In this document: one piece after another, positions 44,667 through 46,084 of the stretch
Layout: each line of letters begins with the position of its first letter
How positions within the stretch are numbered: the stretch's first letter is position 1
Assembly (NCBI GenBank): GCA_011389865.1
Contig: JAABTL010000013.1
Span: forward strand, 1 to 64,000
Source of the DNA: Trueperaceae bacterium
Lineage (GTDB): Bacteria; Deinococcota; Deinococci; Deinococcales; Trueperaceae
Length of the DNA stretch: 64,000 nucleotides
Reading direction: 5' to 3'
Program-made: the position numbers and the translations under genes
Notes under the pieces: generated by a model
The model's input: only the letters and a program-made list of their open reading frames with translations
Databases searched by the model: none
What the model was told of the DNA's origin: nothing

Positions 44667-45928
<1,262 letters not shown>

Positions 45929-45964: not shown

Positions 45965-46027
45965 GGCGTCGGGGCGGGCTCAGGGGTGCGCGACGGGCGC
46001 GGGGCGACGCCACCAGAACTGGTGGCG
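45965..46027 (-). promoter_or_regulatory. Putative trp attenuator with two alternative stems
   Basis: On the minus strand CGCCACCAG and CTGGTGGCG (46008-46027) form a 9-bp hairpin whose 3' arm contains the two leader Trp codons. A second possible stem pairs GGCGTCG (46005-46011) with CGACGCC (45965-45971) and shares four bases with the first, so the two exclude each other. Confidence 0.45.
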
Positions 46028-46072
46028 CACCTTGAAGGCGCGGGGCGTGCGCGTGCGCGGCCGCGGTCGCAT
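45980..46072 (-). CDS. Putative trp operon leader peptide with tandem Trp codons
   Basis: A 30-residue ORF upstream of trpB starts six bases after TAGATT, so it would be leaderless. It opens MRPRPRTRTPR and carries Trp-Trp at residues 20-21 (HQFWWRR), inside a hairpin. Adjacent Trp codons just before tryptophan synthase genes are the classic sign of a trpL attenuator. Apart from TrpB and TrpA, Trp is infrequent in the window, which makes chance less likely. Translation has not been shown. Confidence 0.65.
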   Translation of the reverse strand: MRPRPRTRTPRAFKVRHQFWWRRPAPVAHP

Positions 46073-46078
46073 GCCGGG

Positions 46079-46084
46079 AATCTA
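46079..46084 (-). promoter_or_regulatory. -10 element TAGATT of the trp leader-trpBA operon
   Basis: TAGATT ends six bases before the leader peptide ATG, the same spacing as at other leaderless starts. Confidence 0.6.

Follow-up and report, generated by a model that had tools for sequence, protein, structure and literature searches.

The trpBA genes of a Trueperaceae bacterium are preceded by a short leader ORF with tandem Trp codons, and homologues of this ORF, which share a conserved 13-residue peptide core, lie upstream of trpB in 82 of 111 Deinococcota genomes. In our best reading of this leader, to which we give a probability of about 0.6, it is a leaderless attenuator of trpBA to which the nascent peptide contributes. 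The initial annotation of this DNA had proposed a leaderless leader peptide that controls trpBA, and this idea has held, with conservation now added to it, whereas its assumption that known trp attenuators depend on a Shine-Dalgarno (SD)-led leader and its emphasis on the Trp pair have not. Searches of Pfam, NCBIfam, Rfam, and 5.39 million open papers, a scope that does not cover older papers on Thermus trp genes, returned no conserved-peptide leader family ahead of trpBA, and the family appears to be undescribed.

The analyzed window, which is the whole stretch of 64 kb, lies on a contig of a 3.05-Mb genome. The host is a Trueperaceae-like member of Deinococcota, and the nearest named TrpB is that of a Truepera sp. 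metagenome-assembled genome (77% identity). Read from the sequence, the whole element is on the minus strand. A -35 element TTGCCG (46107-46102) and a -10 element TAGATT (46084-46079) are separated by a 17-bp spacer, and the -10 element is followed after a gap of 6 nt by the ATG at 46072 of a leaderless-type ORF of 30 codons, MRPRPRTRTPRAFKVRHQFWWRRPAPVAHP (46072-45980, with the TGA at 45982-45980), which bears out the ORF and spacing described initially. The ORF contains the conserved core RTPRAFKVRHQFW (13 codons, 46051-46013), as delimited by comparison of 69 distinct cores, and the tandem Trp codons TGG TGG at codons 20-21 (46015-46010). It is followed by a C-rich stretch (45979-45939), the SD sequence GGAGG of trpB (45938-45934), trpB for the beta subunit of tryptophan synthase (45928-44663), whose product is 71-96% identical to the full-length TrpB of relatives, and, directly after it, an ORF with TrpA-like sequence, trpA for the alpha subunit (44666-43821). 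The start of trpB is most likely the ATG at 45928, and the leader stop is then 51 nt upstream; the ORF thus lies shortly before trpB as had been claimed, the distance having been given as 52 bases. The trpE gene of the same genome sits after a dehydrogenase-like gene, and no Trp leader was found within 500 bp before it, so that the trpBA leader is the only trp leader identified in this genome.

The distribution of the leader was analyzed with a profile made from 27 leader peptides, which was searched in 111 Deinococcota genomes and complemented by pattern matches. The genus and family names used for the compared genomes are those that we infer, and no Deinococcaceae were recognized among these genomes; a plasmid search likewise had no Deinococcota records among the best matches listed. 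Comparison with relatives had been set beforehand as the test on which the proposal could fail, and the ORF, the promoter spacing, and the core all recurred before trpB in the 82 genomes. The peptides are about 20-30 amino acids long. There was a single strong match per genome, except for one genome (G014) with near-identical leader copies on two contigs (L119 and L160), the second of which lies at a contig end. The next gene after the leader was trpB in all genomes but one; in that genome (G021, L027), a DMT/EamA-like transporter gene lies between leader and trpB, and the leader may control the transporter there as well. The gene on the 5' side differs between genera and was, by sequence reading, Glu-tRNA-synthetase-like, an ABC permease, a phosphotransferase, fdhD-like, or a divergent thyX-like gene, and therefore the leader belongs with trpB. 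With the same profile, the best E-value in 34 genomes of other phyla was 0.02. The leader is absent from two lineages (f2 and f5) and from genome G008, and most of these cases have a -10 element beside the trpB start itself, which suggests that the trpB mRNA may be leaderless there. At seven loci without the leader (L026, L029, L030, L031, L127, L128, and L141), the -10 element is about 6-8 nt before the trpB ATG. At two Thermus-like loci (L120 and L197), an extended leader ORF overlaps the trpB start by 8 nt, and translational coupling is conceivable.

The promoter geometry is shared by the family. When the gap was measured from the nearest in-frame start codon, the end of a TAnnnT motif lay 5-9 nt upstream of that codon in 58 of the 65 distinct leaders, as compared to 2.4 expected from shuffling, and the commonest gap was 6 nt. 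TTG was present 16-19 nt upstream of the -10 element in 60 of the 76 homologous leaders that have one. The -10 element hence appears to be placed so that transcription starts on the leader ATG or directly beside it, and initiation at this ATG is probably leaderless. In most Meiothermus leaders, the gap is 8-10 nt, and a few bases of 5' leader may be present there. An ORF adjacent to a -10 element is a described expression pattern of Deinococcus-Thermus (PMC12340547).

The central observation concerns the peptide. The core follows the consensus R-T-P-[R/F]-x-[F/Y]-K-x-x-H-[Q/G]-R-[W/Y] and is kept across Trueperaceae-, Marinithermaceae-, and Thermaceae-like families, while the tail of the leader past the core varies freely. 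R1 and T2 do not vary among the 69 distinct cores, and P3 (68/69), K7 (67/69), and H10 (65/69) are almost as constant. The codons behind these residues are diverse: all six Arg codons are used at R1 and all four Thr codons at T2, R, T, P, K, and H are fixed despite varied third codon positions, and the other two frames lack such a pattern. Between genera (23 of them), pS was about 0.70 and pN about 0.19 for the core; the pN/pS of trpB was set aside as a yardstick because the value of one genus looks misaligned. Synonymous variation with fixed residues means that selection acts on the peptide, and it is the amino-acid sequence and not the codons that is conserved, the pattern by which an arrest peptide is judged. 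None of the 19 leader members scanned had a match in Pfam or NCBIfam.

The Trp codons are far less constant, and the tandem Trp pair is not the conserved element that it had been taken for. Tandem Trp occurs in 33 of the 82 homologous leaders, and seven Thermus leaders (for example, MRARTPFAFKRRHGRYRA) have no Trp codon at all and nevertheless retain the core. Clustered Trp codons are kept within the genus of the window and in Meiothermus, where all 17 leaders have WW, but not family-wide. Many leaders finish with HQRW-stop, Trp often being the last codon before the stop, and Oceanithermus-like leaders finish with HQRFW-stop. Because of the seven Thermus leaders, Trp-codon sensing cannot be the whole story of this leader family.

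In the window, the Trp codons occupy the 3' arm of a hairpin, CGCCACCA-GTTC-TGGTGGCG (46027-46008), which is supported by folding and by a register shared with relatives. It has eight Watson-Crick pairs and one G-U pair, so that its original description as a 9-bp hairpin over the Trp codons is a fair one. The hairpin stretch has a minimum free energy (MFE) of -21.5 kcal/mol (z = -4.77), and 0 of 200 shuffled sequences folded as well, although the structure of the leader ORF as a whole is not unusual (z = -1.18). In the other leaders whose core has Trp at position 13, pairing is best in this register, at 72% as compared to 22-43% when the register was slid, but Thermus leaders lack it and still keep the core. 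A second stem that shares bases with the first, as suggested initially, is possible in single-sequence folds, but the relatives give no support for it. Pairing of the last leader codons with the trpB SD (CACCCCTG with CGGAGGTG), which would sequester it, was also considered and was rejected, as it occurred in one fold only and was not clearly kept in relatives. The leader had no Rfam match.

The region behind the leader stop differs between genera. The window leader has no intrinsic terminator after the hairpin and instead has a rut-like, C-rich and G-poor stretch of 41 nt, which extends from the leader stop to the trpB SD (45979-45939, minus strand) and does not overlap the hairpin. With 63% C and 20% G, the stretch has the top rank for C-over-G bias among the sampled 41-nt segments of both strands of the 64 kb, and it is unfolded, with an MFE of -0.2 kcal/mol. 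By composition and predicted fold, it looks like a Rho-utilization site or Rho-dependent terminator, and a rho gene is present in this genome. Most leaders of the Trueperaceae-like family also have no apparent intrinsic terminator, and C exceeds G after the stop in 29 of 30 of them. In Meiothermus, there are three successive stems, namely, the Trp-codon hairpin, a stem 2 that starts from the stop codon, and a terminator stem (CTCGAGG...CCTCGAG followed by a T run). Covarying stems in relatives had been named as a means of checking the proposal, and they exist in the form of Meiothermus stem 2, in which five pairs are changed on both sides. Several Thermus leaders have a GC hairpin with a T run directly before the SD. 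An antiterminator that excludes the terminator was not established for any of these leaders, Meiothermus included. An antiterminator formed via the CTCGAG palindrome in Meiothermus was rejected as not general, because the stem 2 sequences differ in several species. By eye, the A-[F/Y/C]-K codons of two Thermus leaders (L209 and L124) can pair with a strand beside the terminator.

From these features, we infer a Trp response, termination within the leader, a role of Rho, and pausing by the peptide, which would work together as follows. The leader peptide would be a cis-acting element of trpBA. As the RNA would begin on the leader ATG or immediately beside it, a ribosome would load onto the RNA the moment it emerges, and whether RNA polymerase gets as far as trpB would depend on where this ribosome is. 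Under a shortage of charged Trp-tRNA, the ribosome would dwell at Trp codons 20-21, and trpBA would be read; when Trp is plentiful, it would complete the leader and depart, and transcription would end before trpB. In the window genome, termination would most likely be brought about by Rho at the bare C-rich stretch past the stop, and in Meiothermus by the intrinsic terminators. During decoding of the Trp codons, the core RTPRxFKxxHQRW would be in the exit tunnel, where it probably strengthens or tunes the pause. The Trp codons would thus be the sensor in the genus of the window, and the core would add a nascent-peptide contribution, in the sense that the growing peptide itself may help to decide on trpBA expression. 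A point against an attenuator is that, in the window, a stalled ribosome would mask the hairpin, which is separate from the C-rich stretch, and this anatomy does not show how stalling would prevent termination.

The conservation of the core can also be taken further. As in the nascent-chain sensors TnaC and SpeFL, the core could halt the translating ribosome when it senses a small molecule, be it Trp, indole, or some other metabolite. Arrest at or near HQRW/stop would set the downstream RNA fold or the access of Rho, and the Trp codons would then be incidental. The amino-acid-level conservation of the core across three family-level groups speaks for this, as do the frequent position of Trp as the final codon before the stop and the survival of the core in the Trp-free Thermus leaders, which leave room for a true arrest peptide. 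The trpE leaders of the same phylum, which conserve only Trp runs, indicate in addition that codon sensing alone needs no conserved peptide. However, no known arrest motif is recognizable in the leader, and the high number of Trp codons in several genera, above all the WW of all 17 Meiothermus leaders, is better explained by codon sensing, so that we regard this alternative as possible but doubtful. The same tentative standing is given to its widest form, a new metabolite-responsive arrest-peptide family on leaderless mRNA that would control tryptophan synthase in much of Deinococcota through the nascent chain, sense Trp or another pathway metabolite, and still work in Thermus after the loss of every Trp codon.

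Two further explanations were considered. The protein-like selection on the core, and the short, very basic peptide that often lacks tandem Trp, would also suit a small trans-acting protein whose gene stands first in the trpBA operon by chance, and a role in trans has been reported for peTrpL of Sinorhizobium meliloti (PMC7298713). We think this quite unlikely, as the ORF is essentially single-copy and is always just before trpB (apart from the one transporter-like gene in between), its tail beyond the core is free to vary, and terminators or C-rich stretches often come next. Selection on the hairpin as a conserved RNA element, rather than on the peptide, would account for the register common to most of the leaders whose core has Trp at position 13. 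It is highly improbable, as R, T, and P are fixed 5' of the hairpin although almost all of their synonymous codons occur there, the Thermus leaders keep the core without the hairpin register, and Rfam has no match.

Leaderlessness itself is not new, as leaderless trp leaders are already on record in Sinorhizobium and Streptomyces, which is also why the premise of the initial annotation that known trp attenuators are SD-led had to be abandoned. The S. meliloti trpLE(G) attenuator (peTrpL/rnTrpL) has a 14-codon leader with consecutive Trp codons that acts by transcription attenuation, and its transcript begins at the ATG (PMC7298713). It resembles the trpBA leader in its leaderless type and its consecutive Trp codons, but it precedes trpE(G), and the peptides of its relatives are poorly conserved apart from the Trp codons. 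In Streptomyces lividans, trpL1 and trpL2 are leaderless, and, like other actinobacterial leader peptides, they are short and carry cognate codons, and a clear intrinsic terminator is missing in some of these leaders (PMC8079986); trpL1 and trpL2 precede trpE and trpS, and a conserved peptide core is not described there. Nor is the position before trpBA as unusual as had been supposed, since a trp leader with tandem Trp codons, MTNMNAHNWWWRA, was reported upstream of trpB1 in Corynebacterium diphtheriae (PMC5784534). That peptide is a different one, no transcription start site was found, and a leaderless start was not demonstrated there.

Closer at hand are the trpE leaders of Thermus-, Oceanithermus-, Marinithermus-, and Meiothermus-like genomes (L226, L229, L230, L225, L219, L234, and others), which are short and mostly of the leaderless type, such as MRSLPAFWWPG, MKRFAVRFWWWPG, and MLQVPFYPWWWPG. 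They share the -10 spacing and the Trp runs with the trpBA leader, but their sole recurring part is the Trp run, frequently with PG after it, and they do not have the RTPRxFK core. Before trpE of four Trueperaceae-like loci (L251, L252, L253, and L254), there is a distinct leaderless-type ORF with RRWRR or GRWRWR (for example, MFPPLSWLEPRRWRRPSACPSPSA), with the -10 element 5-7 nt before the ATG; this ORF is absent in the window genome. TnaC and SpeFL are short arrest leaders whose amino-acid sequence matters, and TnaC senses Trp, controls Rho termination, and regulates catabolism. The trpBA leader is likewise short and conserved in its amino-acid sequence, but the sequences differ, and arrest by the trpBA leader would be conjectural.

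Leaders of amino-acid operons usually retain only the cognate codons. In the trpBA leader, a peptide of 13 residues has persisted through deep divergence, even in relatives that lack a Trp codon, whereas the trpE leaders of the same phylum are ordinary. The two kinds of leaders therefore form a clean natural contrast between codon sensing and nascent-chain sensing, which is testable in culturable Thermus and Meiothermus species. The trpBA leader would also be a case of control by ribosome position on a leaderless mRNA, with loading of the ribosome that does not require a Shine-Dalgarno sequence.
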